Below, piece after piece: positions 6,797-23,430 of a stretch of 64,000 nucleotides of DNA. This DNA comes from Sphaerisporangium corydalis (GTDB lineage: Bacteria > Actinomycetota > Actinomycetes > Streptosporangiales > Streptosporangiaceae). Both the position numbers and the translations under genes were made by a program. Where the stretch lies: NCBI RefSeq assembly GCF_025506355.1, contig NZ_JANZYP010000012.1, forward strand, positions 62,001-126,000, given 5' to 3'. Position 1 is the stretch's first letter; each line of letters starts with the position of its first letter. The notes below the pieces were generated by a model. The model had not been told where the DNA came from and did no database searches. It saw only the letters and a program-made list of their open reading frames with translations.

Positions 6797-7765
6797 ATGA
6801 CTGATTCGACTACGAGCGCTCCCGGTCCGCTGGTCGGCTGGATCGGAACCGGCCGCATGGGCGTCGCGATGGCGCAACGCGTCGCCAGGGCCGGCGTCGA
6901 CCTCACCGCCTGGAACCGCACCCTGTCCAAGGCGGAGCCCCTCAAGCGGGACGGCGCCGCGGTCTGCGAGACCATCGCCGGCCTGCGCGGCAAGGACGTC
7001 GTGCTCACGATGGTCTCCACCCCGGCCGACCTGGAACAGGTGCTGCTGGGCGAGGGCGGGCTGCTCACCGACCCCGGGAACCTCCCCGGGATCGTCGTCG
7101 ACTGCTCCACCGTCTCCACCGAGTCGTCGGCCGCGATGCGCGTCGCGTGCGAGGAACGAGGGGTCGGGTTCCTCGCCGCCCCGGTCAGCGGCAACGGCAA
7201 GGTCGTCAGGGCCGGAGCGCTCAGCATCGTGGTCTCCGGGCCCAAGGAGACCTACGACAAGGTCGCCCACCTGCTGAGGCACATCGGCAGGTCGGTCACC
7301 TACGTCGGCGAAGGCGACCTCGCGCGCCTGGTGAAGATCGCCCACAACCTGATGCTGGGCGTGGTCACCCAGACGCTGGCCGAGATCACCGTGCTGGCCG
7401 AGAAGGGCGGCGTCCCCCGGCACGCCTTCCTGGAGTTCCTGAACAACAGCGTCATGGGGTCGGCGTTCACCCGCTACAAGTCGCCCGCGTTCGTGAACCT
7501 CGACTACACCCCGACGTTCACCCCGATCTTGCTGCGCAAGGACTTCGACCTCGGCCTCGCCGCCGCCCGCCGCCTCGACGTGCCCATGCCCGTCACCGCC
7601 CTCACCGCCCAGCTCGTCCAGGCCAGCGTCGGCAGCGGGCGCACCGAGGAGGACTTCTCCATCCTGCTCGACCTCCAGGCCGCCGCCTCGGGGATGACGC
7701 TCAAACCCGAGAACGTCGTGGTCGACGACGGCCTCGGCGCCGCCGCCGGGAAAGACGCGCTGTGA
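6797..7765 (+). CDS. NAD(P)-dependent beta-hydroxyacid dehydrogenase (3-hydroxyisobutyrate dehydrogenase-like)
   Basis: A 322-residue cytosolic dehydrogenase. The N-terminal Rossmann motif is GWIGTGRMGVAMAQRVARAG. The family substrate motif appears as AAPVSGNGKVVRAGALSIVVSG (consensus DAPVSGG...AGTLTIMVGG). The catalytic Lys is in LVKIAHNLMLGVVTQTLAE near residue 175, and the C-terminal RKDFDLGLAAA helix is typical. I start at the ATG at 6797, preceded by GAGGCGGAACC, rather than an in-frame codon 33 bp upstream that would include the operator. It overlaps the next gene (GTGA), so it is part of an operon with the M24 protein and the aldehyde dehydrogenase. It may oxidise a hydroxyacid to a semialdehyde for the downstream enzyme. 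Confidence 0.87.
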   Translation: MTDSTTSAPGPLVGWIGTGRMGVAMAQRVARAGVDLTAWNRTLSKAEPLKRDGAAVCETIAGLRGKDVVLTMVSTPADLEQVLLGEGGLLTDPGNLPGIVVDCSTVSTESSAAMRVACEERGVGFLAAPVSGNGKVVRAGALSIVVSGPKETYDKVAHLLRHIGRSVTYVGEGDLARLVKIAHNLMLGVVTQTLAEITVLAEKGGVPRHAFLEFLNNSVMGSAFTRYKSPAFVNLDYTPTFTPILLRKDFDLGLAAARRLDVPMPVTALTAQLVQASVGSGRTEEDFSILLDLQAAASGMTLKPENVVVDDGLGAAAGKDAL

Positions 7766-9006
7766 CGGCCATGGCCCCGCTGCCCGCGCCCGGGCACATG
7801 GGGGTCGACTACGAGCAGCGCGTCGACTTCGGCCGGCTCCGGGACCACCGGCTGGGCAGGGCGCGCGCGGCCCTGGAGGCGAGCGAGTGCGGCGCCTTCC
7901 TGCTCTTCGACTTCTACAACATCCGCTACACCACCCAGACCTGGATCGGCGGCGCGCTCGGCGACAAGATGACCAGGTACGCCCTGCTCATCCGCGGCGA
8001 GGAACCCAAGCTGTGGGACTTCGGGTCGGCGGCGCGCCACCACCGCCTGTACAGCCCGTGGCTCGACCCGGCCGACTGCCACGCGGGCATGCTCGGCATG
8101 CGCGGCGCCATCGCCCCCACGGCCGGGCTCATGGAAAGCGCGATCCGCCAGATCAAGGGCATGCTGGAGGACGCCGGCCTGGCCGGGGCCCCCGTGGGCG
8201 TCGACATCGTCGAGCCGCCGTTCCTGTTCGAGATGCAACGCCAGGGCCTGTCCGTCGTGGACGCCCAGCAGCTCATGCTCGACGCCCGGCTGATCAAGTC
8301 CGCCGACGAGATCATGCTGCTCACCCAGGCCGCGGCCATGGTCGACGGCGTGTACCAGGACATCGTCGAGGTGCTCAAACCCGGGATCCGCGAGAACGAG
8401 ATCGTCGCGCTGGCGAACAAACGCCTCTACGAGATGGGCTCCGACCAGGTGGAGGCCGTCAACGCCGTGAGCGGCGAGAGGTGCAACCCCCACCCGCACA
8501 ACTTCTCCGACCGGCTGATCCGCCCCGGCGACCAGGCGTTCTTCGACATCATCCACTCCTACAACGGCTACCGCACCTGCTACTACCGGACGTTCAGCGT
8601 CGGCAGCGCCACCCCGAGCCAGCGCGACGCCTACACCCGGGCCCGCGAGTGGATGGACGCATCGATCGGCGCGGTGCGGGCAGGGGCCGGTACCGACCAG
8701 GTGGCCGCCGTCTGGCCGGCCGCGACCGAGTTCGGATTCGAGGACGAGATGGCCGCGTTCGGCCTGCAGTTCGGCCACGGGCTCGGACTCGGCCTGCACG
8801 AACGGCCGATCATCTCCCGGCTCAACAGCATGCGCGAGCCGATCGAACTCCAGGTCGGCATGGTGTTCGCGCTGGAGACGTACTGCCCGGCCGACGACGG
8901 CTTCTCGGCGGCCCGCATCGAGGAGGAGATCGTGATCACCGAGCAGGGGCCACGCGTCCTCACGCTGTTCCCCGCCCAGAGCCTGGTCGTCGCCAACCCG
9001 TACTGA
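7762..9006 (+). CDS. M24 (creatinase/aminopeptidase P fold) family protein with altered metal site
   Basis: A 414-residue protein with an N-terminal creatinase domain and a C-terminal pita-bread domain. Counting from the GTG start, the five M24 metal-ligand positions read Asp262 (FFDIIH), Cys273 where the second Asp is expected (GYRTCYYRTF against the usual GY..D..RTF), His339 (FGHGLGLGLHE), Glu372 (FALETY) and Glu387 (ARIEEEIVIT). A Cys at the second position argues against a normal dinuclear metallopeptidase. It may be a non-peptidase hydrolase or lyase like creatinase, ectoine hydrolase DoeA or DddP-type enzymes, or use a single metal. GTG at 7762 overlaps the upstream stop; an ATG at 7771 is the alternative start. 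Confidence 0.83.
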   Translation: MTAMAPLPAPGHMGVDYEQRVDFGRLRDHRLGRARAALEASECGAFLLFDFYNIRYTTQTWIGGALGDKMTRYALLIRGEEPKLWDFGSAARHHRLYSPWLDPADCHAGMLGMRGAIAPTAGLMESAIRQIKGMLEDAGLAGAPVGVDIVEPPFLFEMQRQGLSVVDAQQLMLDARLIKSADEIMLLTQAAAMVDGVYQDIVEVLKPGIRENEIVALANKRLYEMGSDQVEAVNAVSGERCNPHPHNFSDRLIRPGDQAFFDIIHSYNGYRTCYYRTFSVGSATPSQRDAYTRAREWMDASIGAVRAGAGTDQVAAVWPAATEFGFEDEMAAFGLQFGHGLGLGLHERPIISRLNSMREPIELQVGMVFALETYCPADDGFSAARIEEEIVITEQGPRVLTLFPAQSLVVANPY

Positions 9007-9020
9007 AGAAAGGGTCACCC

Positions 9021-10481
9021 ATGGGAGACAAGAGCCAGGTGACGGTGGGCGACCTGCTCACCGACCTGTACATCGCGGGCCAGGCCGTCCCGGCCGGCGA
9101 CGGCGGGCGGTTCGACGTGCTCGACCCGGCGACCGGGCGGGTCATCACCACGGTGGCCGACGGCACCGTCGAGGACGCCATCACGGCCGTCGACGCGGCG
9201 CACGCCGCGGCCGGCCCGTGGGCCGCCACCGCGCCCCGGCAGCGTGCCGAGATCCTGCGCAAGGCGTTCGAGCTGATGACCGAGCGGGCGGAGGACGTCG
9301 CCCTGCTGATCTCCCTGGAGAACGGCAAGGCGCTGCCCGACGCCAGGGGAGAGGTCGCCTACGCCGCCGAGTTCTTCCGGTGGTACGCCGAGGAGGCCGT
9401 GCGGGGCAACGGGTCGGTGGTCACGGCGCCCTCGGGCGCCAACCGCATCGTCGTCGTCCACCAGCCGGTCGGCATCTGCGTGCTGGTGACGCCGTGGAAC
9501 TTCCCCGCCGCCATGGCGACCAGGAAGATCGGCCCCGCCCTGGCCGCCGGCTGCACGGTCATCCTCAAGCCCGCCAGCGACACACCGCTCACCGCCCTGG
9601 CGATGGCCACCATCCTCGCCGACGCCGGGGTGCCGCCGGGGGTCGTCAACGTGCTGCCCGCCCGGCGGTCCGGCGCCGTCGTGTCGGCCATGCTGCACGA
9701 CCCGAGGGTACGCAAACTGTCCTTCACCGGGTCGACCGAAGTCGGGCGGGTCCTGCTCGGCGAGGCCGCCGACCAGGTGCTCAACACCTCCATGGAACTC
9801 GGCGGCAACGCGCCGTTCGTCGTGTTCGCCGACGCCGACCTCGACCAGGCGGTCGACGGCGCCATGATCGCCAAGATGCGCAACGCCGGCGAGGCGTGCA
9901 CCGCCGCCAACCGGTTCTACGTCGAGTCGCCCGTCGCCGAGGAGTTCGGCAGGCGGCTGGCCGCGAAGATGGCGGCGCTGACCGTCGGCCCCGGCACCGA
10001 GGAGGGCACCGAGGTCGGGCCGCTGGTGAACCAGGAGGCGGTGGACAAGGTCGACGGCCTCGTACGCGCCGCCGTCGGCGAGGGCGCCAAGGCGGTCATC
10101 GGCGGCGTCCGCCCCGACCGGCCGGGGTTCTACTACGACCCGACGGTGCTGGTGAACGTGCGCCCCGACTCCCCGATCCTGCGCGAGGAGATCTTCGGGC
10201 CGGTCGCGCCGATCGTCACCTTCGAGGAGGAGGACGAGGCGGTCCGCTTGGCCAACGACACCGAGTTCGGGCTGGTCGCCTACGTGTACACCGGCGACCT
10301 GGCCCGGGGCCTGCGGGTCAGCGAACGGCTCGAATCGGGAATGGTCGGGCTGAACCGCGGCCTGGTCAGCGACCCGGCGGCCCCGTTCGGCGGCGTGAAA
10401 CAGAGCGGCGTCGGCCGCGAGGGCGGCCACGAGGGCATGCTCGACTACACCGAAGCCAAATACATCGCCGTGAACTGGTAA
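9021..10481 (+). CDS. NAD(P)-dependent aldehyde dehydrogenase (succinate-semialdehyde dehydrogenase-like)
   Basis: A 486-residue aldehyde dehydrogenase. The oxyanion Asn is in VTPWNFPAAM near residue 160, the general base Glu in TSMELGGNAPFVVF near residue 262, and the nucleophile Cys in NAGEACTAANRF near residue 294. The GEACTAANR context and the IVVVHQPVGICVLVTPWNFP segment resemble succinate/glutarate-semialdehyde dehydrogenases. It lies 14 bp after the M24 gene with GAAGAAAGG upstream, and is the last gene of the operon, followed by a strong hairpin. It would convert a semialdehyde from the pathway to an acid for central metabolism. Confidence 0.9.
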   Translation: MGDKSQVTVGDLLTDLYIAGQAVPAGDGGRFDVLDPATGRVITTVADGTVEDAITAVDAAHAAAGPWAATAPRQRAEILRKAFELMTERAEDVALLISLENGKALPDARGEVAYAAEFFRWYAEEAVRGNGSVVTAPSGANRIVVVHQPVGICVLVTPWNFPAAMATRKIGPALAAGCTVILKPASDTPLTALAMATILADAGVPPGVVNVLPARRSGAVVSAMLHDPRVRKLSFTGSTEVGRVLLGEAADQVLNTSMELGGNAPFVVFADADLDQAVDGAMIAKMRNAGEACTAANRFYVESPVAEEFGRRLAAKMAALTVGPGTEEGTEVGPLVNQEAVDKVDGLVRAAVGEGAKAVIGGVRPDRPGFYYDPTVLVNVRPDSPILREEIFGPVAPIVTFEEEDEAVRLANDTEFGLVAYVYTGDLARGLRVSERLESGMVGLNRGLVSDPAAPFGGVKQSGVGREGGHEGMLDYTEAKYIAVNW

Positions 10482-11363: not shown

Positions 11364-12377
11364 ATGCGACTTCTCATCTTCGGGGGTACGAAGTTCCTCG
11401 GGCGCGCGGTAGCGGAAGAGGCGCTTCGCCGCGGTCACAGGGTGACGACGTTCAACCGTGGCGCGTCCGGTGCCGACGTGCCCGGTGTCACGGCCGTGCG
11501 TGGCGATCGCACCAGCGCTGAGGACCTGGAAGTTCTCGCCGCGCAGGGCGACTGGGACGTGGCCATCGACACAAGTGGCATGACCCCCACGCTTGTCCAG
11601 GACTCCACCCGCATCCTGCACGGGTCGGCCACACGCTACGTCTTCGTGTCCACGGTCAACGTCTATGAAGGTTGGCCCACGCTTCCGCTCACTGATGACT
11701 CGCCCGTACGGGAATACACCCCAGTCGGCCCAGCCGGGGAGAGCGACGCCGAGGAGTACGGCCGACTCAAGGCCGGCTGCGAGCAGGCCGTCTCTAACTG
11801 CTATGGAGACCGCGCCGCGTTGCTACGCCCCGGTGTCATCCTCGGCCCGAACGAGTACGTTGGCCGTGTCCCCTGGTGGTTGAACCGGGTCCTTGCCGGA
11901 GGCCGGGTACTCGCTCCCGGCCGACCCGACTGGCCGATCCAGCCCGTGGACGCACGCGACGTCGCCGCGTTCGCTCTCGACGTCGCCGATCAGGGTCTTG
12001 CCGGGTCGTACAACGTGACCGCGCCAATCGGCCACTCCACATTCGGGCAATTCCTACACACCTGCATCAAGGTGACTCACTCCAGCGCCGAGCTGATCTG
12101 GGTCGAGGATGCGTTCCTACGCGAGCACGGTGTCCCCGAATGGGTCGGCCTGCCCCTATGGCGGGACTATGAAGGCACCTGGAACGTGCACGCTACCCGG
12201 GCCAAGGCCGCGGGCTTGAGATGTCGGCCGCTGGAAGAGACCATCGCTGACACCTGGCAATGGTTGCGCGGCGGCGCCGCAGTCTCATCCGAACGGGCCG
12301 CAGAGCTGGGTATCTCGCGCGAACGGGAAGTGGAGCTCCTCGCGACATGGGACACCCGCACGGAGGCCGCCTGCTAA
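11364..12377 (+). CDS. NAD-dependent epimerase/reductase, extended SDR family
   Basis: A 337-residue extended short-chain dehydrogenase. It begins MRLLIFGGTKFLGRAVAEEAL, the Rossmann GGTxFLG motif, with TSGM and VFVSTVNVYEG strands. The usual active-site Tyr-x-x-x-Lys is seen as YGRLK near residue 128. The PVDARDVAAFALDVAD segment is common to isoflavone-reductase/NDP-sugar epimerase-like proteins of actinomycetes. It has no link in sequence to the lanthipeptide genes beyond its position beside them; a tailoring or unrelated role is equally possible. Its 3' end overlaps the convergent regulator gene by 4 bp. Confidence 0.82.
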   Translation: MRLLIFGGTKFLGRAVAEEALRRGHRVTTFNRGASGADVPGVTAVRGDRTSAEDLEVLAAQGDWDVAIDTSGMTPTLVQDSTRILHGSATRYVFVSTVNVYEGWPTLPLTDDSPVREYTPVGPAGESDAEEYGRLKAGCEQAVSNCYGDRAALLRPGVILGPNEYVGRVPWWLNRVLAGGRVLAPGRPDWPIQPVDARDVAAFALDVADQGLAGSYNVTAPIGHSTFGQFLHTCIKVTHSSAELIWVEDAFLREHGVPEWVGLPLWRDYEGTWNVHATRAKAAGLRCRPLEETIADTWQWLRGGAAVSSERAAELGISREREVELLATWDTRTEAAC

Positions 12378-13891
12378 AGCGTCCCCGGAGGAAGCGCCCG
12401 CACCGTCGATCCGGCGTTGAAGTCCCTGAGCGCTTCGGTCAGTTCATGGACTGCGCGAGTAGCCTGAATCTGTGCAAGCGGGATGCGCATCCCTCGCAAC
12501 CGGTGAAGTACCGGGAAGGTTCTCATGTCTCCCGGAAGACTGAACACGGGGCGCAGCGTGTTACAGGCGCCGGACACGTCGCCGAGGAAAAGCCGGGCTG
12601 TGGCCATGTCCGAGAGGATGGTCGCCTCAACGATGGTGGAGCGCTGTTCGAAAGGCGCGGCATGTGACATGGTCAGAGCCCGGTTGCAATGAGCAAGAAT
12701 CAGGTTGGTGAAGCAGTGCAATGCCGCCGGGTCCAATTCGGCGTCCTGGCGCTGGATCAGTTCGAGAACCGCAGTTGATGCGCACCGCTCTTCCCGCACA
12801 CGATCCCAGTTGAAGACGCCGCCTACGTAGGCCAAATCATCGTGTTCATCGTCTCGTGCGTTGGCACGGGCATCTTGAGCGTTCCGCACGGCTTGGAGCG
12901 TCCGCTCAGTGTTCCCCAGGTGTGACCAGGTGCGTGCTCTGATGCTGTTCAGGCGTGCCGATGCCACCCCGCTGGGGTGGTGTTCTTCGGCACGGCTGAT
13001 CGCGACCAGGGCGTCATTGGGAGCGTCGTTCCAGTAGGCAGAGGTCGCCTGCATGCCACGTGCCCACACCGCAAGTGGCACGTGCCCGATGTTATTGGCG
13101 TGGACCCATGCGGCACAGGCGTGGTCGTTAACCATCTGGTGCTCGCCCAGGTCGATGCTCGCCTCCGCCAGCAGAGCGCACAGCACACCATTCAAGAAGG
13201 ACAGGTGACGAAGCTGGTCCGGGTGCCGAGTCTGCCGTGTTTTGCCCTCCACTTGAGTGCGTAAGTCGCTGATCTTGGGAAACATTACGATAGGCGACTG
13301 GGAAAGGTAGCTTCGAGCAAGCGCTACCACGTCGCTCTCAAGAATTTCCAGGGCAGATCGGCCTAGCGCTGTTTCTGCATGGGCAGCTGAATCACGAGAC
13401 TTCTCGGCAGCGGACATCATCAACTCACGGAGGTTTAGGGGAATAGGGCGGGCGTTGCGCCCGGCTACGGACTCGGCCGTCGAACGTGCTGCACCGCATT
13501 GCGATGACAAGTCGATCGTCTCGGCATCCATGTCAGGAGCAGGAACATCCACCTGGACAGGCATCTTGGTCAACAACTTGCTGGCCGGGTGGCCGAACAT
13601 CGTCTGTAGGACCACACAGGCATCCGGTAGCGGAAGCCCCTTCAGCTCACCGGCCAACCACCGCAGATACTGGCGCCGCTCTACGCTGAGCCCACGCAAC
13701 TCGAGATCACGAGCCGTCTTCTCAAAAATACGGACAAATCGTTTGTATGGCAGCAAGTCTCGTGCCCGGACAAGCTGCTTGAGGTAGGTCTCCTCCACCT
13801 GCTCCACTGCAAGCCGGCCCTTTCCCTGCGCGTACTGTCGCCCGCAGCGTAAGCGGCCGAGACCAGCGGTGATAGGTAATCCGGCCGACAT
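12374..13891 (-). CDS. TPR-containing transcriptional regulator next to lanthipeptide genes
   Basis: 505 residues if translated from the ATG at 13891. The first recognisable block (ETYLKQLVRARDLLPYKRFVRIFEKTARDLELRGLSVERRQYLRWLAGELKGLP) looks like the atypical N-terminal domain of actinobacterial regulators that cooperate with a TPR region. The rest is helical, with tetratricopeptide-like pairs through residue about 480. The true start may be one of the in-frame GTGs at 13807 or 13798, since homologous-looking domains begin near ETYLK. It is divergent from the precursor gene, with GAAGTCAC repeats in between, and is the likely cluster regulator. Confidence 0.7.
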   Translation of the reverse strand: MSAGLPITAGLGRLRCGRQYAQGKGRLAVEQVEETYLKQLVRARDLLPYKRFVRIFEKTARDLELRGLSVERRQYLRWLAGELKGLPLPDACVVLQTMFGHPASKLLTKMPVQVDVPAPDMDAETIDLSSQCGAARSTAESVAGRNARPIPLNLRELMMSAAEKSRDSAAHAETALGRSALEILESDVVALARSYLSQSPIVMFPKISDLRTQVEGKTRQTRHPDQLRHLSFLNGVLCALLAEASIDLGEHQMVNDHACAAWVHANNIGHVPLAVWARGMQATSAYWNDAPNDALVAISRAEEHHPSGVASARLNSIRARTWSHLGNTERTLQAVRNAQDARANARDDEHDDLAYVGGVFNWDRVREERCASTAVLELIQRQDAELDPAALHCFTNLILAHCNRALTMSHAAPFEQRSTIVEATILSDMATARLFLGDVSGACNTLRPVFSLPGDMRTFPVLHRLRGMRIPLAQIQATRAVHELTEALRDFNAGSTVRALPPGTL

Positions 13892-14105: not shown

Positions 14106-14258
14106 ATGAATGGCAGCAAAGTCCTGGATGACCTCACAATTGATCTGTTCGATCTCGACGCCAGAATGGTGGACGGCAACCTGCTGGCCGTCGATGCGAT
14201 TACCGACAACGGTTGCGGCACGCAGCCCGCCTGCCGCTACCCCGACCCGCAGAGCTGA
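14106..14258 (+). CDS. lanA: FxLD-family lanthipeptide precursor peptide
   Basis: A 50-residue peptide, preceded by GGAG 7 bp before the ATG. The leader has FDLD at residues 15-18 (the FxLD family signature) in an acidic, amphipathic stretch. The C-terminal core, from about residue 31, contains Thr33-Asp34-Asn35-Gly36-Cys37, Gly38, then Thr39-Gln40-Pro41-Ala42-Cys43, ending in RYPDPQS. The two Thr and two Cys would give two methyllanthionine rings, each T-x-x-x-C, separated by one Gly. There is no Ser before the last residue, so both dehydrations must fall on Thr33 and Thr39. The leader-core cleavage site is not evident. LanB follows 50 bp downstream. Confidence 0.88.
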   Translation: MNGSKVLDDLTIDLFDLDARMVDGNLLAVDAITDNGCGTQPACRYPDPQS

Positions 14259-14308
14259 AGCCACCTGACCATGCGACGGGCCACGGCCCTCAACAAGGGA
14301 GTCTGGCT

Positions 14309-17149
14309 GTGGCCCGTCCAATCTTCACAGCCCGAAGCAGCGCGTTGGCGCGCATTCCTCTGCGCCCGGCGGATGACTTCGGCCACGACACCGACCGTAC
14401 GGACCCACTGCTCGACGAAGCGGTGACAGTGGCTAGCGGATCGGCGCGGAACGCGGCCTACCATTCCGGTCCAGGAGCGTTGACCTGGCGCGCCTACGAC
14501 ATACGGTCACGGATACGCACCACCCCACACGGAGTGTTCGCGGGTGTCGCCCCCGCCGTCTTCTCAGACGAACCGCACCTGCGCCTTGGAGCGCATCACC
14601 GAACCGTCACGAACCCCGATCCACAATGGCTGAGCCTGTTGGCGCGCTCGATCATAAGCGAAGCCGGAGGGTTGTCGAAGGCGAGGCTGACGACCAGCAA
14701 CCTCGCCTTCATGCGAGGAGATCGCTGGGAGATCGAGCGCCCAATGAGTGGCGGCCCATCGCAGCCGATGACGGTCAGCGTCCGCAACACGGAGGTGACC
14801 GCCTTCGTCCTGCGAGCCTGCCGAGAGGGTTTGCCGGCGGTATGGGCGAGCGCTGAGCTGGAGAGACGGTGGCCGCAAGCGGCTCCGGGGTCGGGGCCGA
14901 AGTTCCTGCGGGAACTGATCGATGGTGGTTTCCTGCTGCACGATCTCCTCCCCGATGATCCGCGCGCCGATCCTCTGGGACATTTGCTGGACCGGCTCCC
15001 GGCCGATCTTCCGCAGTACCACCTTTTGGAACAGCTCCGTGATCGTCTCATCGAGGCTGACGAACATAGGGCGGGCAGCCTGAAGCGGCTGGAGCTTCTC
15101 ACCGGCTCGTCCGCCGTCGCCCAGTCGATCCTTCCGGCGGATCGCCTGCTGCGCGTTGACACCGTTGTAGATGCCACCGTAGTGCTGCCCGTTCAGGTGG
15201 CGGAGAAGGCCGCTGAAGCCGCCGGTCTCCTGTGGCGGATCGGCTGGGGCACCGACCCGCTCACCGACTACCATCAGCGGTTCCTCACCCGCTACGGAAC
15301 CTCGCAAGCCGTTCCGCTTCTGGATGTCCTCGATCCCGTCACCGGTCTCGGCCCGGTCGACGCTGTCGCCCCCATCGGGGCCGGTAATGGCGACGTCGGC
15401 CGAGAAGCGGTACTGGCTCGGTTGCTGTCCGACGCAGTCTCCGAGGGCAGGACCGAGATCGTCTTGGATGAAGCGACCGTGGACCGACTGACGAACCGCA
15501 GCAAGGCTGCGGTCCCACGTAGCGCGGAGGTCTATGTTCGCATCCTCGCCGGTGACATCACACCGGCGGCGGACCGCCCATTCCAGTTGGCGGTGTCTGG
15601 CGGTTCCCAGGACGCGCTGTCGACCAGTGGCCGGTTCGTTCCACTGCTCGGACTGCCCTCAGAGTTCCCCGAGACCAAAGACGGCGCCCTTGTCGCCGAA
15701 CTGGTGGTGCGCCCCCGTATCGACGCCGCGGCATCCGTCACAGCGGGGACCGGGCTCGTCCCCCACCGCATCCCGGTAGGGATCCCGCCGCGGCCCGGTG
15801 ATCTGAATCTCCCGGACCTGGCGGTCTTCTCCGACGGTCGACGTCTTCTCGTGTGGTCACAGGTCCACGACCAGCGTGTCATTCCCGTCCTGTACTCACG
15901 GGTCGCTTTGTCGTTACTTCCGCCGGTTGCCCGGTTCCTGGCCCTGGTGGGCCACGCGGGGGAGCGTCCCTGGCACTGCTGGTCATGGGGGACCAGTACC
16001 GCTCCGTTCACCCCGGCCGTCCGCTATCGGGACTCTTGGCTCACGCCCGCCCGCTGGGTCCTGCCGAAGCACCTTGTGTGGGCCGCTGCGACCTCGGACC
16101 GGTGGGAGGCCGCGCTCACCTCATGGCGGTCGACAGCCTGGCCGCAGCCTCCCGACGTCGTGGCCACCGATGACGTTGACCGACAACTGCTACTGGATCT
16201 GCGGCGGGTCGATGATCGTGAGCTGCTGGGCCGTTATGTTCGGCGAGGTATTACGGCCGTTACCGCTCCGCACGGAGGCGACCAGTTCACCGCTGCCGTC
16301 CTCCCCGGCTCCGGCGGGGGCCATATTCTGGAGCTGGTCGTCTCCCTCGATGGAGTCGTCTCCCCGCCGGTCTCCGCCGTGGCCGCGCCTCCGATTCGCC
16401 AGCGCGGGGCCGGCCTGTACCTCCCTGGTGGACCTTGGCTGTCACTCGCCATCCAGGCTCCCTCCAGCTGCCACGAAGAAGTCCTGCGATCGCTGGCCCG
16501 CCGGGTAAGGGAGATACCCCGGCGCTGGGACCGATGGTTCTGGCTCCGTTACTACGACCTGCGGCACGGTGAGCACCTCCGAGTCCGGTTCCACGCCGAC
16601 CCCGTGGACGTGAATGGCATCGTCCTGCCGTTCCTGTCACGGTGGGCGGCTGATCTCATACGTCAGCGTCTGATCTTCAGCTTTTGCGTCGAGCCCTACG
16701 ACCAAGAGATCGAGCGATATGGCGGAACAGCCGCCATCACCGCAGCGGAACAATTCTTCGACGCCGATAGTCGGCTGGCCCTCGATGTCCTGTCCGCCAC
16801 CCGAGAGGAGGATGCTCGGCTGACCATCGCCGCGATCACGGCGGCCATGATCGCCAGACGGGTCGGCAATGGTGCCATCCCAGCCGTGCGACTCGATCGG
16901 GAATCCCACAGGCGTGCGAACACCCTGAGACGGCGGATACAGGCCGCTCGGAACCCATTCCCGCCCGGCTGGGAACTGGCGCTGTACGCCTACGCCTCCG
17001 TCCTCCCCCCAGCGCGAGGCGCCAGCATCGCCTCGGACTTGATCCACCTGCACTGCAACCGGCTGGCACCCGCCCGCGAACAGCTCATCCGGGCGCTGGC
17101 CATCGACCTGATCGCGCGCCACACCCACCTCACCGAGGGATCCCGATGA
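14309..17149 (+). CDS. lanB: Class I lanthipeptide dehydratase LanB
   Basis: A 946-residue full-length LanB. The large N-terminal part matches the tRNA-Glu-dependent glutamylation domain (YDIRSRIRTTPHGVFAGVAPAVF: the RSxxRxTPxGxFAG signature; later FLTRYGTSQAVPLLDVLDP). The last roughly 280 residues are the elimination domain (WFWLRYYDLRHGEHLRVRFH, then the terminal ARxxLIRALAIDL helix). It should glutamylate and then eliminate Thr33 and Thr39 of the precursor. I chose GTG at 14309 with AAGGGAG upstream; the frame is open for 96 bp more but overlaps the precursor gene. It overlaps lanC by ATGA. Confidence 0.9.
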   Translation: MARPIFTARSSALARIPLRPADDFGHDTDRTDPLLDEAVTVASGSARNAAYHSGPGALTWRAYDIRSRIRTTPHGVFAGVAPAVFSDEPHLRLGAHHRTVTNPDPQWLSLLARSIISEAGGLSKARLTTSNLAFMRGDRWEIERPMSGGPSQPMTVSVRNTEVTAFVLRACREGLPAVWASAELERRWPQAAPGSGPKFLRELIDGGFLLHDLLPDDPRADPLGHLLDRLPADLPQYHLLEQLRDRLIEADEHRAGSLKRLELLTGSSAVAQSILPADRLLRVDTVVDATVVLPVQVAEKAAEAAGLLWRIGWGTDPLTDYHQRFLTRYGTSQAVPLLDVLDPVTGLGPVDAVAPIGAGNGDVGREAVLARLLSDAVSEGRTEIVLDEATVDRLTNRSKAAVPRSAEVYVRILAGDITPAADRPFQLAVSGGSQDALSTSGRFVPLLGLPSEFPETKDGALVAELVVRPRIDAAASVTAGTGLVPHRIPVGIPPRPGDLNLPDLAVFSDGRRLLVWSQVHDQRVIPVLYSRVALSLLPPVARFLALVGHAGERPWHCWSWGTSTAPFTPAVRYRDSWLTPARWVLPKHLVWAAATSDRWEAALTSWRSTAWPQPPDVVATDDVDRQLLLDLRRVDDRELLGRYVRRGITAVTAPHGGDQFTAAVLPGSGGGHILELVVSLDGVVSPPVSAVAAPPIRQRGAGLYLPGGPWLSLAIQAPSSCHEEVLRSLARRVREIPRRWDRWFWLRYYDLRHGEHLRVRFHADPVDVNGIVLPFLSRWAADLIRQRLIFSFCVEPYDQEIERYGGTAAITAAEQFFDADSRLALDVLSATREEDARLTIAAITAAMIARRVGNGAIPAVRLDRESHRRANTLRRRIQAARNPFPPGWELALYAYASVLPPARGASIASDLIHLHCNRLAPAREQLIRALAIDLIARHTHLTEGSR

Positions 17150-18444
17150 CCACCACCTCCCCCGGAACCCGCACCACCGACTCCGCCGGGGCGGCCCTCG
17201 CCATCGCCGACCGGCTTCTGGATACCGAACCGATCATCACCGCGGCCGGTTCCGCGGCGACCTCTCTGTCGCGAGGTCTGGCGGGGACCGCGCTCCTGCA
17301 CGCCCGCCTGTCCAGGTGTCACCCGCGCTTCGCGACGGCGGCAGACCTCCACTGGACCCGCGCCGCCCGTATGAATATCTCCGCGCCTCCACGGACAGGC
17401 GGAGTGTTCAACGGTGTAGGCGCGCTCGCCGCCTCCCTGATTCTGGGAACCCCCTACCTACCCGACCCCGGGCCATACCAGGCGGCGGTCCGTCGCTCCG
17501 TCGAGTGGTTGACTGCCCGGGCCATCGCGATAGCAGCCTGGCAGCAGGACTGGCTAGACGCCAGTCAGGCAGGAATGCCCTGGCAGACCTACGATCTGAT
17601 CAACGGCCTGTCGGGAATCGGCCGAATCCTCCTCGCTGCCGTCCAAGCTGGACACCTCGACGCCGAATCAGGGCTGCTAGCCGCGAGCAACTCACTCACC
17701 ACCATGATCGAAACACCTCGCAGGGACAAACCCGGCTGGTGGAGACCGCAACCACACAACCCCGCCGCGCTTTCCGACCCGCACAATTGCGATGCCGCGA
17801 ACACCGGACTCGCTCACGGGATAGCCGGGCCTTTGGCCTTCCTGGCAGAGTGCCAGCTCGCGGGACGGGGTTGCGCCGCGCAGCCCGATGCGATCCGGAC
17901 CGCCGCCCATTGGCTGCTCCAGTGGCGGGCCGGCGATAGCTGGCCGCCGCAGGTCACCGTTGACGACCTCGCCGGAACCAGTACCAGCCCAAGTAGCCGA
18001 GGCCGCCGCGACGCCTGGTGCTACGGCGCGCCGGGCATCGGCGCCGCTCTTTTCGCCGCCGGTCGTGCGGTGGCCGACCCGCGCCTGATCGAGGCGGCTC
18101 GCTCCGCGATCGACGCCCTCGCCGTCCGAACCGGTGAATGGGACACCGAAGGGCCTACGGTCTGTCACGGAAGCGCGGGAGTGCTGCTCTGCGCCGGACT
18201 GACCGGCAGCCACGTCACTGCGGACCTCGCCGCCGACGCCCTGATCGCGCAGTACGATCCGCAGCTTCCGTTCTGCTTCCAGCATCGCGACCACGGCAGA
18301 ACCATTGATGAGCCGGGGCTCCTGGTCGGTGCGGCCGGAATCGCCCTAGCTCTGGCCGACCGGAGCGGACTGGCCACCCGCAAGCCGCCCACGACATGGA
18401 CCGCCGCCCTCCTGCTGCCCACGTCCGTTTCGCTCCCCGAGTGA
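17146..18444 (+). CDS. lanC: Lanthionine synthetase C-like cyclase LanC
   Basis: A 432-residue cyclase. The zinc ligands are visible: Cys292 (DAWCYGAPGIG), Cys340 and His341 (TVCHGSAG). Upstream the catalytic-region His is in GLAHGIAGPLAFLAE, and the alpha-toroid repeats carry GxxG motifs (DLINGLSGIGRILL, EPGLLVGAAGIALAL). It adds the two precursor Cys thiols across the dehydrobutyrines. The ATG overlaps the lanB stop, which argues for one transcript. Confidence 0.92.
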   Translation: MTTTSPGTRTTDSAGAALAIADRLLDTEPIITAAGSAATSLSRGLAGTALLHARLSRCHPRFATAADLHWTRAARMNISAPPRTGGVFNGVGALAASLILGTPYLPDPGPYQAAVRRSVEWLTARAIAIAAWQQDWLDASQAGMPWQTYDLINGLSGIGRILLAAVQAGHLDAESGLLAASNSLTTMIETPRRDKPGWWRPQPHNPAALSDPHNCDAANTGLAHGIAGPLAFLAECQLAGRGCAAQPDAIRTAAHWLLQWRAGDSWPPQVTVDDLAGTSTSPSSRGRRDAWCYGAPGIGAALFAAGRAVADPRLIEAARSAIDALAVRTGEWDTEGPTVCHGSAGVLLCAGLTGSHVTADLAADALIAQYDPQLPFCFQHRDHGRTIDEPGLLVGAAGIALALADRSGLATRKPPTTWTAALLLPTSVSLPE

Positions 18445-18471
18445 TCCCAGGACCGAAGATAGGTTGCCACG

Positions 18472-19683
18472 ATGGACACCGACATCCGTCAAACCACCGA
18501 GCGGCTCCGTGCCGACCTCGTCGACTTCTTGCTCGCGCGCGGGACGATCAAATCCGGCCGAAATGAGGCCGCGTTGCGATCGGTACCCCGGCACGCCTTC
18601 GTCCCGGACGTCTCGTCGGAAACGGCCTACGCCCCTGACGATGCTGTTGTCACGAAACGGGACATCGCCGGGGTAGCGCTCAGTTCGGCCTCCGCGCCTG
18701 GAGTCGTCGCCGTGATGCTGGAGCAACTCGACGTCCGGCCTGGAGACCGCGTGCTGGAGATCGGAGCCGGAACCGGCTACAACGCCGCCCTCCTGGCCGA
18801 GCTGGCCGGGCCGGACGGTCACGTCGTCACCATCGATATCGACGCCGACGTCGTTGACGGAGCACGAGCGGCTCTGGCCTCCACCGGCTACGGGCATGTC
18901 GAGGTGTGGTGCGCCGACGGCGCCGACGGCTACGCGCCCGCCGGCCCTTACGACCGGATCATCGTCACCGCAGGAGCGTGGGACCTGCCCCCGGCTTGGC
19001 GGCAGCAGCTCACCCCGGCCGGACGGCTCGTCGTGCCATTGCGGATCATCGGCGGAACGACCCGCTCCATCGCATTCGACCTTCACGACGACCACCTAGT
19101 CAGTCGATCAATGGTGACCTGCGGCTTCCTGGCCATGCGCGGCATCGGCGCCCGACCGGAGCCTGCCATCCCCCTCATCGATGGCGTCACCCTCCTCCTT
19201 GGCGACGGACGCACCGCGCCTTCCCACGCCCTCGCCCGCGCACTCTCTCAGCCCGCGCTGCGCTCCTGGTCCGGGATCTCGATCCCGTCAGGCCCGTCTT
19301 TCCAGGACCTAGACCTGTGGCTGGCGACCACCAGTCGTGAATTCTGCCGGATCGTCGCGCAACCTGAGGCCGTCGACACCGACCTGGCGACACCGGCTTT
19401 CAGGTGGGGCGGCGCTGCCGTGACCAACGAGATCGACTCTTTCGCCTACCTCACCATCCGGCCCAGTGATCCCGTCGGTGACGGCACTCTCTTCGAACTC
19501 GGCGTCCGTGCCCACGGACCTGAGCGCGACCGCCTCACGACCTCACTCCTGGAGCGGATCAGGGACTGGGACACGAACCACCGCGACACCACCCCGCGCA
19601 TCGACGTGTACTTCAAACCGGTCCAGGTCACCGCCACGACGGTCATCGACAAACCCCATACGCTCTTGGCCGTCACCTGGTGA
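18472..19683 (+). CDS. PIMT-like methyltransferase of FxLD lanthipeptide systems
   Basis: A 403-residue SAM-dependent enzyme. Residues 1 to about 220 resemble protein-L-isoaspartate O-methyltransferase: ALRSVPRHAFVPD near the N-terminus, then VLEIGAGTGYNAALLAEL (SAM motif I, near residue 97) and VVTIDIDADVV. The remaining roughly 180 residues are a C-terminal extension found in the 'methyltransferase, FxLD system' group. Enzymes of this kind methylate a core Asp, which collapses to succinimide and then isoaspartate or stays as aspartimide. Asp34, inside the first predicted ring and next to Asn-Gly, is the obvious candidate (inference). It begins 27 bp after lanC. Confidence 0.88.
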   Translation: MDTDIRQTTERLRADLVDFLLARGTIKSGRNEAALRSVPRHAFVPDVSSETAYAPDDAVVTKRDIAGVALSSASAPGVVAVMLEQLDVRPGDRVLEIGAGTGYNAALLAELAGPDGHVVTIDIDADVVDGARAALASTGYGHVEVWCADGADGYAPAGPYDRIIVTAGAWDLPPAWRQQLTPAGRLVVPLRIIGGTTRSIAFDLHDDHLVSRSMVTCGFLAMRGIGARPEPAIPLIDGVTLLLGDGRTAPSHALARALSQPALRSWSGISIPSGPSFQDLDLWLATTSREFCRIVAQPEAVDTDLATPAFRWGGAAVTNEIDSFAYLTIRPSDPVGDGTLFELGVRAHGPERDRLTTSLLERIRDWDTNHRDTTPRIDVYFKPVQVTATTVIDKPHTLLAVTW

Positions 19684-19687
19684 CGGG

Positions 19688-20782
19688 ATGATCCCCGAAC
19701 TGCGCGAGGACGTCGCCCGCCGCTTTCCCCTCGTGCCCCGCGGCAGGCCCGTCTGCCACCCTTTGGACGTACGTGTCCGCCAGGTCGCCGACCTGGCGGA
19801 CAGCGGGTCCGACTATCCTGAGGAAGCCACGAGGATCGCAGCCGAAGCGCACAACCTCGGCGCACTGGTCGCAAGCGATTGCGGCTTTTCCTCCCTGGCC
19901 CGCGACTTGTGCTGGAGACAGTTCCAGATCTTCCACGACGCCCAGCCGTTCGATGCGGCGACCGCGAAACTCGCTCTACAACCGCTCGTCAACCTCGGTC
20001 GCCTTCTCGCGCGAGAGGGCAACGGCACCGCCGCTCACCATCTGATCGAAACGCTGTTCACCGCTGTCCGCCATAGCGCGACCGGCACCTTCGGTGGCAC
20101 GGTCATCGACCTCGGCAACGTGACCCACAGCTCCGACGATCACCGTGAAATCGTTCAATGGCTATGGACTGTGCTTCTCGCCGATGGAATCCGAGCCTTG
20201 GCGCAGGCGGGGCGCTGGAGTCAGGCACTTCAGCACGTCCAAGATCATCGCGGCATAAGTCGCAGCCTCCTCGACGGTCGCCAGATCGCCATCATCGCCC
20301 ACCGCGCAGTCGGTGACCGCCGGACATCCACATGTCTCCTGACAGAAACCGATACGCCCACCCCGTGGGAACGGACCGTGGCAGCTGGTCTGGCGGTTCT
20401 CACAAGCAGCGAAAGCGGTGACCCTATCTCCCTGGTGGATCGCTATCTCCCGCTTGGCGGGCCATCCACGCAGGTTGTTTTTCGAACCCGTCTCGGCCTG
20501 GTGGTTCTCGACCTCGTCGACGAACGATTCGGTCCGCGTTTGGCTCACACGATCGCGATCGACGTCCAGCGGTCGCAGGACGCCTACGCGGCCCGCGAGG
20601 TACTCGCCCACGCGGGATGCGCATCCCTGATCCCCGCGACAGCGAGAAGAGTTCTGACCAGCCTTGTGCAGGTCTCGTGCCTGGGAAGAGGAACCATGCC
20701 CATCGAACTTTGGGACCAATTCCGCATGGCCATGACCACCGCCGAGACCTCGCTCAGAGAGGCGCTTTCCCGGCGGCCGTAG
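19688..20782 (+). CDS. Unknown helical protein in the lanthipeptide cluster
   Basis: A 364-residue protein I cannot assign. It looks all-alpha and TPR-like: repeated Leu/Ala-rich helices such as LAREGNGTAAHHLIETLF and GIRALAQAGRWSQALQHVQ. There is no signal peptide, metal motif or nucleotide-binding loop. It begins 4 bp after the methyltransferase stop, so it is almost certainly co-transcribed and co-regulated. Possible roles are a scaffold, leader-peptide chaperone or immunity-linked factor; nothing in the sequence decides. The RBS (GGTGACGGG) is weak, as expected for a coupled gene. Confidence 0.75.
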   Translation: MIPELREDVARRFPLVPRGRPVCHPLDVRVRQVADLADSGSDYPEEATRIAAEAHNLGALVASDCGFSSLARDLCWRQFQIFHDAQPFDAATAKLALQPLVNLGRLLAREGNGTAAHHLIETLFTAVRHSATGTFGGTVIDLGNVTHSSDDHREIVQWLWTVLLADGIRALAQAGRWSQALQHVQDHRGISRSLLDGRQIAIIAHRAVGDRRTSTCLLTETDTPTPWERTVAAGLAVLTSSESGDPISLVDRYLPLGGPSTQVVFRTRLGLVVLDLVDERFGPRLAHTIAIDVQRSQDAYAAREVLAHAGCASLIPATARRVLTSLVQVSCLGRGTMPIELWDQFRMAMTTAETSLREALSRRP

Positions 20783-22046: not shown

Positions 22047-23075
22047 TCAGGATGCGCTGCAGGAGACCGTGGGCCAGGTGGTGGAGCCGTTGGTCTGGAT
22101 GGTGACGCCGAAGTTGTTGCCGCTGCCGTTGGGTCTGGCGGTCAGGACCTGGGCGCTGGGGTAGCTGGCGCTGATGTTCCAGGTGGCGATGATCTTCTCG
22201 GGGGACGGGACGTTCATCGTGACGGTCCAGTTGGTCGAGCCGCTGACCGCGACGTTGAGGTTGTACCGGTCACTCCACTGCTGGCCCGCGGACAGCGACG
22301 CGGTGCAGCCGCCGCCTCCGCCGCCGCCACCCCCACCGCCGCCTCCGCCGCCACCACCGGTGGAGCCGCCGACCGTGATGTTCGAGTTCCCGCTGCTCTG
22401 GTATCCCTCGGTCGCGAGGATCTGGTAATCGTGGTTGCCCAGGTTCATTCCATAACGGGCCCACGCGTCGAAGTGGTTGCCGGCGGTGATGGTTCCGCCG
22501 GTCTTCTTCGACTGCCGTACGCTCCAGTACTGATTGAAGGTCCTGATGCCATCGATGGAGGGGGCGTTGGTGCGCGTCGTCTGGTAGATGTCGTAGGTCC
22601 CGCCATCGCTGGTGACCGTGCCCTTGTACGACCCCGTGGGCCGGTAGGTGCCCCAGTTGTCGAGGATGTAGTACTCCACCAGCGGGTTTCTCGTCCAGCC
22701 GTAGAGGGTCAGGTACGCGTTGCCGGATGGGTTGAAGCTGCCGGAGTAGGTCACGGCCCTGCGTGCGCCGGTGCTCCAGCCCTTACCGGCGACGAAGTTC
22801 CCGACGTTGCTCCATGAGGTGCTGTAGTTGCCGCCGGATCCGAGTTCCATGGAGGACGACCCACCGCCATCGCTCCAGAACGAGAAGAAGTAGCCGTTGT
22901 TGGTGCCGGTCTGGTTGGTCGATATGGCGGCGTTGGCCATGCTGGGGAACATCGTGAGGACCGCGACCAGCGCCATGGCGAGGGCACGGCCGATGAGCGG
23001 CCCGAAAGCGAAGACACGTCCGATGAGGGGCCTGGCGCGTCCGCGGCTCCTCGGGCGGGCGGGGGCGTCGTTCAT
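22047..23075 (-). CDS. Secreted GH11 endo-beta-1,4-xylanase with CBM2 module
   Basis: A 342-residue extracellular enzyme. Residues 1-49 are a signal peptide with a twin-Arg-poor basic start and an ...SMANA cleavage site. Residues 50-235 are a GH11 jelly roll, with nucleophile Glu134 (LVEYYI) and acid/base Glu223 (ATEGYQSSG). Residues 240-256 are 17 consecutive Gly, and residues 257-342 form a family 2 carbohydrate-binding module bounded by two Cys, with SWxVT-like NWTVTMNVP and [10 protein letters not shown] strands. The start at 23075 has GAGGAGG upstream; the frame is open a further 309 bp but without a plausible signal. It hydrolyses xylan outside the cell. Confidence 0.93.
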
Positions 23076-23301
23076 GTGCGTGCTTCCTCCTCGTGAAGGC
23101 CGGCGGGGGCAGGCAGCGAGATACGACAGAGCAGGACCGCCGGTGGCCGGGGACGCGGCCACCACGCCCTGGTGTCGCACGACGCGGCGGTGTTGGCCGG
23201 TCGTCGTGCGGTCGACGACGACCGGAGGACCAGGCCGCGCGGCGGGTGACCCGGATCGACGGTGGTCTGACCCTGTCGATGGCGACAGTGTTAGCCCGAT
23301 C

Positions 23302-23430
23302 CTGAAAGTTGTCAACGATTCCCGAAAGATTGCGAACGCCATGTACTGATCAAGGGCTGATGACACCGTATTTGTCCTGATCAATGGTTATCCACGGCAG
23401 TTCTGATCAGGGCTGGTCGATGAAAGTTTC
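23302..23430. promoter_or_regulatory. Xylanase upstream region with GAAAG boxes and CTGATCA repeats
   Basis: CCTGAAAGTTG (23301) and CCCGAAAGATTG (23321) are two copies 20 bp apart, and GAAAGTTTC (23422-23430) is a perfect GAAA-G-TTTC palindrome of the kind reported upstream of Streptomyces xylanase genes. CTGATCA occurs at 23346, 23377 and 23403. The remainder of 23076-23469 has no gene. It controls the xylanase and perhaps ends the TetR transcript. Confidence 0.5.

Follow-up and report, generated by a model that had tools for sequence, protein, structure and literature searches.

PIMT-like enzymes have been reported as the most frequent auxiliary enzymes in class I lanthipeptide clusters, where a conserved Asp residue is described as their target (PMC7268733, PMC13001092). 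The class I families I_1 to I_4 have a PF01135 methyltransferase and an Asp that is fully conserved (PMC7268733), the TxDGC core motif has been described (PMC10787088), and OlvA/OlvSA is a known example of this kind (PMC13001092). OlvSA methylates an Asp that sits within a methyllanthionine ring; the resulting ester breaks down to a succinimide, which opens mainly to isoAsp, and isoAsp is methylated faster than Asp (PMC13001092).

The locus described here lies in a stretch of 64,000 nucleotides, hereafter the window. Like the lanthimiditides (OlvA/OlvSA of Streptomyces olivaceus and the class I families I_1-I_4 of Walker 2020), it combines LanB, LanC and a C-terminally extended PIMT-like LanSA with an FxLD-type leader and a small first ring that holds a candidate site, but the conserved Asp of TxDGC is replaced by Asn in the window. 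Its methyltransferase shares the fold and the SAM motif of canonical PIMT and, in our proposal, its substrate logic as well, namely an Asn-derived isoAsp. In contrast, canonical PIMT serves in protein repair and mostly has no C-terminal extension, and Asp is the residue that RiPP homologues of PIMT are known to methylate.

The gene arrangement is unremarkable, as all five genes recur in this order on Streptomyces plasmids. Plasmid pM92 of Streptomyces sp. M92 and the NBC_01216 plasmid both harbour the series precursor-LanB-LanC-fxlM-companion homologue, annotated as an FxLD system. They differ from the window in their ring, TDDNC rather than TDNGC, in a longer fxlM (about 690 aa) and in a precursor annotated as an FxLD family member, whereas that of the window scores under the family cut-off. 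A cluster of Actinomadura craniellae LHW63021 (L043, in genome G066) also has all five genes; its core, ITDNGCGTQPACRYPDPQS, is identical to that of the window, although its enzymes and companion are merely 57-70% identical to their counterparts.

The five-gene operon and its class

The five genes, at 14106-20782, form one operon (Table 1). Fifty bp separate the precursor and LanB genes, LanB and LanC overlap by 4 bp, and the gaps are 27 bp between the LanC and methyltransferase genes and 4 bp between the methyltransferase and companion genes.

Table 1. Features of the lanthipeptide operon, in window coordinates.
Feature	Position	Strand	Evidence
Precursor peptide, 50 aa	14106-14258	+	Translation MNGSKVLDDLTIDLFDLDARMVDGNLLAVDAITDNGCGTQPACRYPDPQS
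Ring 1, T33-D34-N35-G36-C37	14202-14216	+	63 methyltransferase-linked precursors compared
Predicted ring 2, T39-Q-P-A-C43	14220-14234	+	Sequence; ring formation presumed
LanB dehydratase, class I, full-length, 946 aa from GTG	14309-17149	+	PF04738 (Lant_dehydr_N) 443.6 bits; PF14028 (Lant_dehydr_C) 122.7 bits
LanC cyclase, 432 aa, zinc ligands C292/C340/H341	17146-18444	+	PF05147 (LANC_like) 127.5 bits
LanSA/FxlM-type PIMT-like O-methyltransferase, C-terminal extension, 403 aa	18472-19683	+	TIGR04364, PCMT
TPR-like helical-repeat companion protein, unannotated, 364 aa	19688-20782	+	Recurrent beside FxLD methyltransferases; fold model

Translation and searches for protein families bear out what a preliminary description of this DNA had observed: a single strand with small gaps or overlaps, a precursor with FDLD at residues 15-18, a LanB matched in both halves, a LanC with the listed Cys and His ligands and a PIMT-like methyltransferase. 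The core, T33-D-N-G-C37-G-T39-Q-P-A-C43-RYPDPQS, holds exactly two Thr (33, 39) and two Cys (37, 43), arranged as T33-DNG-C37, G38 and T39-QPA-C43, as had been noted. With the glutamylation and elimination domains of LanB and the zinc ligands of LanC, this is a class I lanthipeptide locus, for which two five-residue methyllanthionine rings are a reasonable prediction.

The methyltransferase scores 468.3 bits against TIGR04364 (cut-off 320), over profile positions 2-394 of 394, and such over-cut-off FxLD methyltransferase matches occur in 181 of the 299 genomes of the family. With an intact LanSA gene next to LanB and LanC, the operon has the gene content of lanthimiditide clusters. As for the precursor, it reaches 15.4 bits (E 0.014) with TIGR04363, the FxLD model by which the preliminary description had proposed to check the 50-residue ORF, and the curated cut-off is 30. 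This sub-threshold match covers the FDLD leader and the first ring (residues 13-39), and the neighbouring genes are those expected of an FxLD system. The label 'FxLD-type' given earlier is supported for the methyltransferase, which passes the model of the FxLD system. Under the refuting condition set in the preliminary description, the lack of an FxLD HMM hit, the precursor falls short of the curated cut-off. The same genome has a second FxLD cluster (L001, on contig C117 of G000, 64739-64849, minus strand; also L072), whose precursor, MDYELNLRLVDAGPAATGFATDTDDNCGSGNTGSDACSGG, passes TIGR04363 with 44.1 bits and has a normal ring, TDDNC. Since the model works in the same genome, we regard the window peptide as a divergent relative.

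By gene content the cluster is of a large known kind, but it fails two defining sequence tests, the TIGR04363 cut-off and the conserved Asp. For these reasons, we classify it as a class I lanthipeptide cluster that encodes a methyltransferase of the FxLD system and represents an Asn-bearing variant of the lanthimiditides. It is more than a chance assembly, because two relatives, G001 (LanB 77% identical) and A. craniellae (LanB 61% identical), have precursors with 80-82% identity to that of the window, and the other genes of the cluster have dN well below dS. No match to the precursor was found in other species of the genus.

An Asp-Pro pair close to the end of the core (PDPQS, 14238-14255) has counterparts elsewhere, such as DPS, DPF, DPA or DPV. 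Of 61 distinct precursors sampled, 27 have such a pair, in many cases within loci L003-L146, and it is possibly a recognition or processing element.

Asn at the modified position of the first ring

Methyltransferase loci were gathered from related genomes and precursors were sought alongside. In the unbiased set, chosen by methyltransferase score only, 63 of 115 loci have a recognisable first ring. Position 3 of this ring is Asp in 62 of the 63 (T-x-D-[G/N/T]-C), and the sole exception, L141, has Asn-Gly. The window ring, T-D-N-G-C, thus departs from the conserved Asp of T-x-D-G-C, with Asn35 at the position where related precursors carry the target Asp of the methyltransferase. The preliminary description had suggested looking for a mass change on Asp, which overlooks the Asn at the position modified by this enzyme family. 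Among the freely readable papers covered by our literature search, none describes Asn at this position.

TDNGC is common to the window, G001 (LanB 77% identical), A. craniellae (61%) and three loci with LanB 43-46% identical (L044, L045 and L071), and elsewhere in this LanB clade the ring reads TNDGC, TSDTC or TDDGC. Two sister rows on the methyltransferase tree, the Asn-type TTTDCTDNGCSATC (L044) and the Asp-type TTTDCTDDGCSATC (L077), align without gaps, as TTTDC-TDNGC-SATC and TTTDC-TDDGC-SATC, respectively. Because this pair aligns around position 3, Asp changed to Asn in place and not through a shift by insertion.

A targeted pattern search, which demands NGC with glycine encoded by GGC (and thus missed the window, with GGT), added three TSNGC clusters and one further TDNGC cluster, L167. 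Each of these four has LanB and an intact methyltransferase; in L168, LanC is split across two frames. It also yielded L171 (contig C53 of G027, around 7624-9130), a decaying TDNGC cluster with an intact precursor, a LanB cut to about 150 residues of similarity and a partial methyltransferase. An earlier TDNGC genome pattern contained a leader part (ACCTS) incompatible with the window's own GATCTCGAC, and its zero matches are uninformative. The residue after position 3 is Gly in all nine Asn-type rows, compared with G51/N12/T4 in the Asp-type rows. Gly after Asn as a rule is only suggestive from these sequences, given that the pattern that supplied four of the nine Asn rows itself demands Gly.

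On the methyltransferase tree (76 sequences), the Asn/Asp state needs at least five changes (5-5 in bootstraps). Three remain when L141, whose LanB is matched only over about the first 280 residues, and L045, whose LanC is shortened, are left out. The LanB tree gives five changes (4-5 in bootstraps), of which well-supported branches alone force two. Along the methyltransferase tree, Asn and Asp have thus replaced each other at least three to five times, with the enzyme remaining intact, although few of these switches are truly independent. Asn-type methyltransferases retain the near-invariant residues, and no column of the alignment tracks Asn versus Asp beyond the signal of the clades.

One could argue that the aspartimide modification has been lost, Asn being tolerated and the methyltransferase acting elsewhere, for instance on Asp47 of the tail, or nearing loss itself. 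Two Asn-type loci are indeed damaged, L171 with its LanB fragment and part of a methyltransferase and L141 with a truncated LanB. However, both the window and A. craniellae have an intact methyltransferase under constraint (403 and 408 aa, 70% identical, dN 0.216, dS 0.746, ratio about 0.3), the cores of these two clusters are identical at 61% LanB identity, and Gly follows Asn in every case seen. We consider such a loss unlikely.

The second position of the ring suggests another possibility, that the methyltransferase modifies Asp34 and that Asn35 is simply its unmodified n+1 residue, which would make the peptide an ordinary lanthimiditide whose target lies one residue earlier in the ring. 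In the LanB clade of the window, Asp is found at position 2 in seven of seven Asn-type members as opposed to one of eight Asp-type members (Fisher p 0.0014, uncorrected for kinship). Asn is also listed among n+1 residues (PMC13001092), and an Asp-then-Asn context is accepted in 12 of the 63 sampled precursors (TSDNC, TGDNC, TEDNC). Nevertheless, Asp at position 2 is common anyway, next to the conserved Asp (24 of 61 distinct precursors overall), L044 and L077 differ by D/N at position 3 only, with Asp already at position 2, and the TSNGC peptides, which have no Asp in the ring, retain LanB and the intact enzyme. A shift to Asp34 is a strong alternative, somewhat less probable than the reading preferred below.

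A proposed route through an Asn-derived succinimide

Our preferred reading is that the modified Asp has been replaced by Asn-Gly, that the succinimide forms spontaneously and that the methyltransferase acts on the resulting isoAsp or Asp; we give it a probability slightly above 0.4. Asn-Gly is the fastest-deamidating pair, in which the same succinimide forms fastest unaided (PMC4682632). Spontaneous entry of Asn35-Gly36 into the cycle is the simplest reading in view of this published chemistry, the repeated interchange of Asn and Asp and the retention of a constrained enzyme.

By analogy with the family, LanB would dehydrate T33 and T39, and LanC would couple them to C37 and C43, yielding two five-residue methyllanthionine rings. 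In ring 1, Asn35-Gly36 would lose ammonia (-17.03 Da) and close by itself into a succinimide, which water would open mostly to isoAsp (+0.98 Da). The methyltransferase would then methylate the isoAsp or Asp carboxylate and drive the return to the succinimide. Asn would thus be a pre-activated Asp, and the enzyme would behave as classical PIMTs do, at a site derived from Asn. Either the precursor or the product is probably bound by the TPR-like protein, and leader removal and export would depend on genes located elsewhere.

Some observations speak against Asn35 as the site. The Asp at position 2 in all Asn-type members of the window clade fits an enzyme that has moved to Asp34, and the sole Asn case of the unbiased set, L141, whose LanB match stops after about 280 residues, may reflect decay. 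The small ring could also hinder succinimide formation at Asn35. The masses predicted for modification through Asn35 and for modification of Asp34 differ: relative to the full precursor with two methyllanthionine rings (5316.48 Da), a succinimide at Asn35 would give 5299.46 Da and isoAsp or Asp at residue 35 would give 5317.47 Da, against 5298.47 Da (-18.01 Da) for a succinimide at Asp34.

Building on the spontaneous start at Asn35-Gly36, it is tempting to speculate, slightly more tentatively, that a lanthipeptide branch encodes its aspartimide/isoAsp site as Asn-Gly, with upkeep by the PIMT-like enzyme, and that Asp and Asn have been exchanged in both directions since both converge on the succinimide.

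Companion protein, neighbourhood and significance

The last gene of the operon, described earlier as encoding an unknown protein, indeed has no Pfam, NCBIfam or PHROGs match, but it is a recurrent cluster member and not a stray gene. Of 251 genomes of the family, 70 have homologues (including L178-L206). At least 38 of 75 tallied sites have one of the listed strong FxLD methyltransferases within 10 kb, which is either the immediate neighbour (starts about 1.1-1.2 kb apart) or some 6.5 kb distant. The companion is thus a conserved member of FxLD clusters, common there without a family model. Its homologues on the plasmids are annotated only as hypothetical proteins.

AlphaFold2 applied to 27 homologues gave a confident helical solenoid (pLDDT 94.8). 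The nearest solved folds are TPR proteins, with Rap/NprR peptide sensors at the top (Z about 13; best VIA-align Z 13.2, for Rap of pLS20, close to the chance level for helical repeats), and the best Foldseek E value is 1.3e-3. As a Z of about 13 is near chance for such repeats, 'TPR-like' is the only safe name for the model. Its fold and its genomic company suggest that the companion might bind the leader or the product.

A gene for an NsdA-family TPR-like regulator (12374-13891, minus strand; 67.8 bits, just under the cut-off of 75) is divergent from the operon and could regulate it. We rejected it as a member of the operon: it has no detectable relation to the companion and no match beside the A. 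craniellae cluster. A glycosyl hydrolase family 11 (xylanase) gene is also found near the operon (22047-23384, minus strand). In line with the preliminary description, no transporter or leader protease gene was recognised among the ORFs tested beside the operon. The tested flanks of relatives likewise showed none, save for an MFS gene beside L068. Promoter and terminator scans gave results at chance level.

In A. craniellae, an asparagine synthase-like gene (L065, 10601-12511, minus strand) adjoins the cluster on the opposite strand. This is probably a coincidence and was given no weight here, as no similar gene was recognised next to the operon in the window.

These clusters raise two questions, of which one is the conserved TPR-like companion. 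The other concerns the enzyme, whose usual chemistry may start differently here, Asn-Gly being able to form the same reactive ring unaided. Natural Asn-Gly peptides with an intact enzyme are a ready-made experiment on whether the succinimide or isoAsp itself is selected, or something about Asp. They would also make peptides with aspartimide or isoAsp accessible by simple genetic means.
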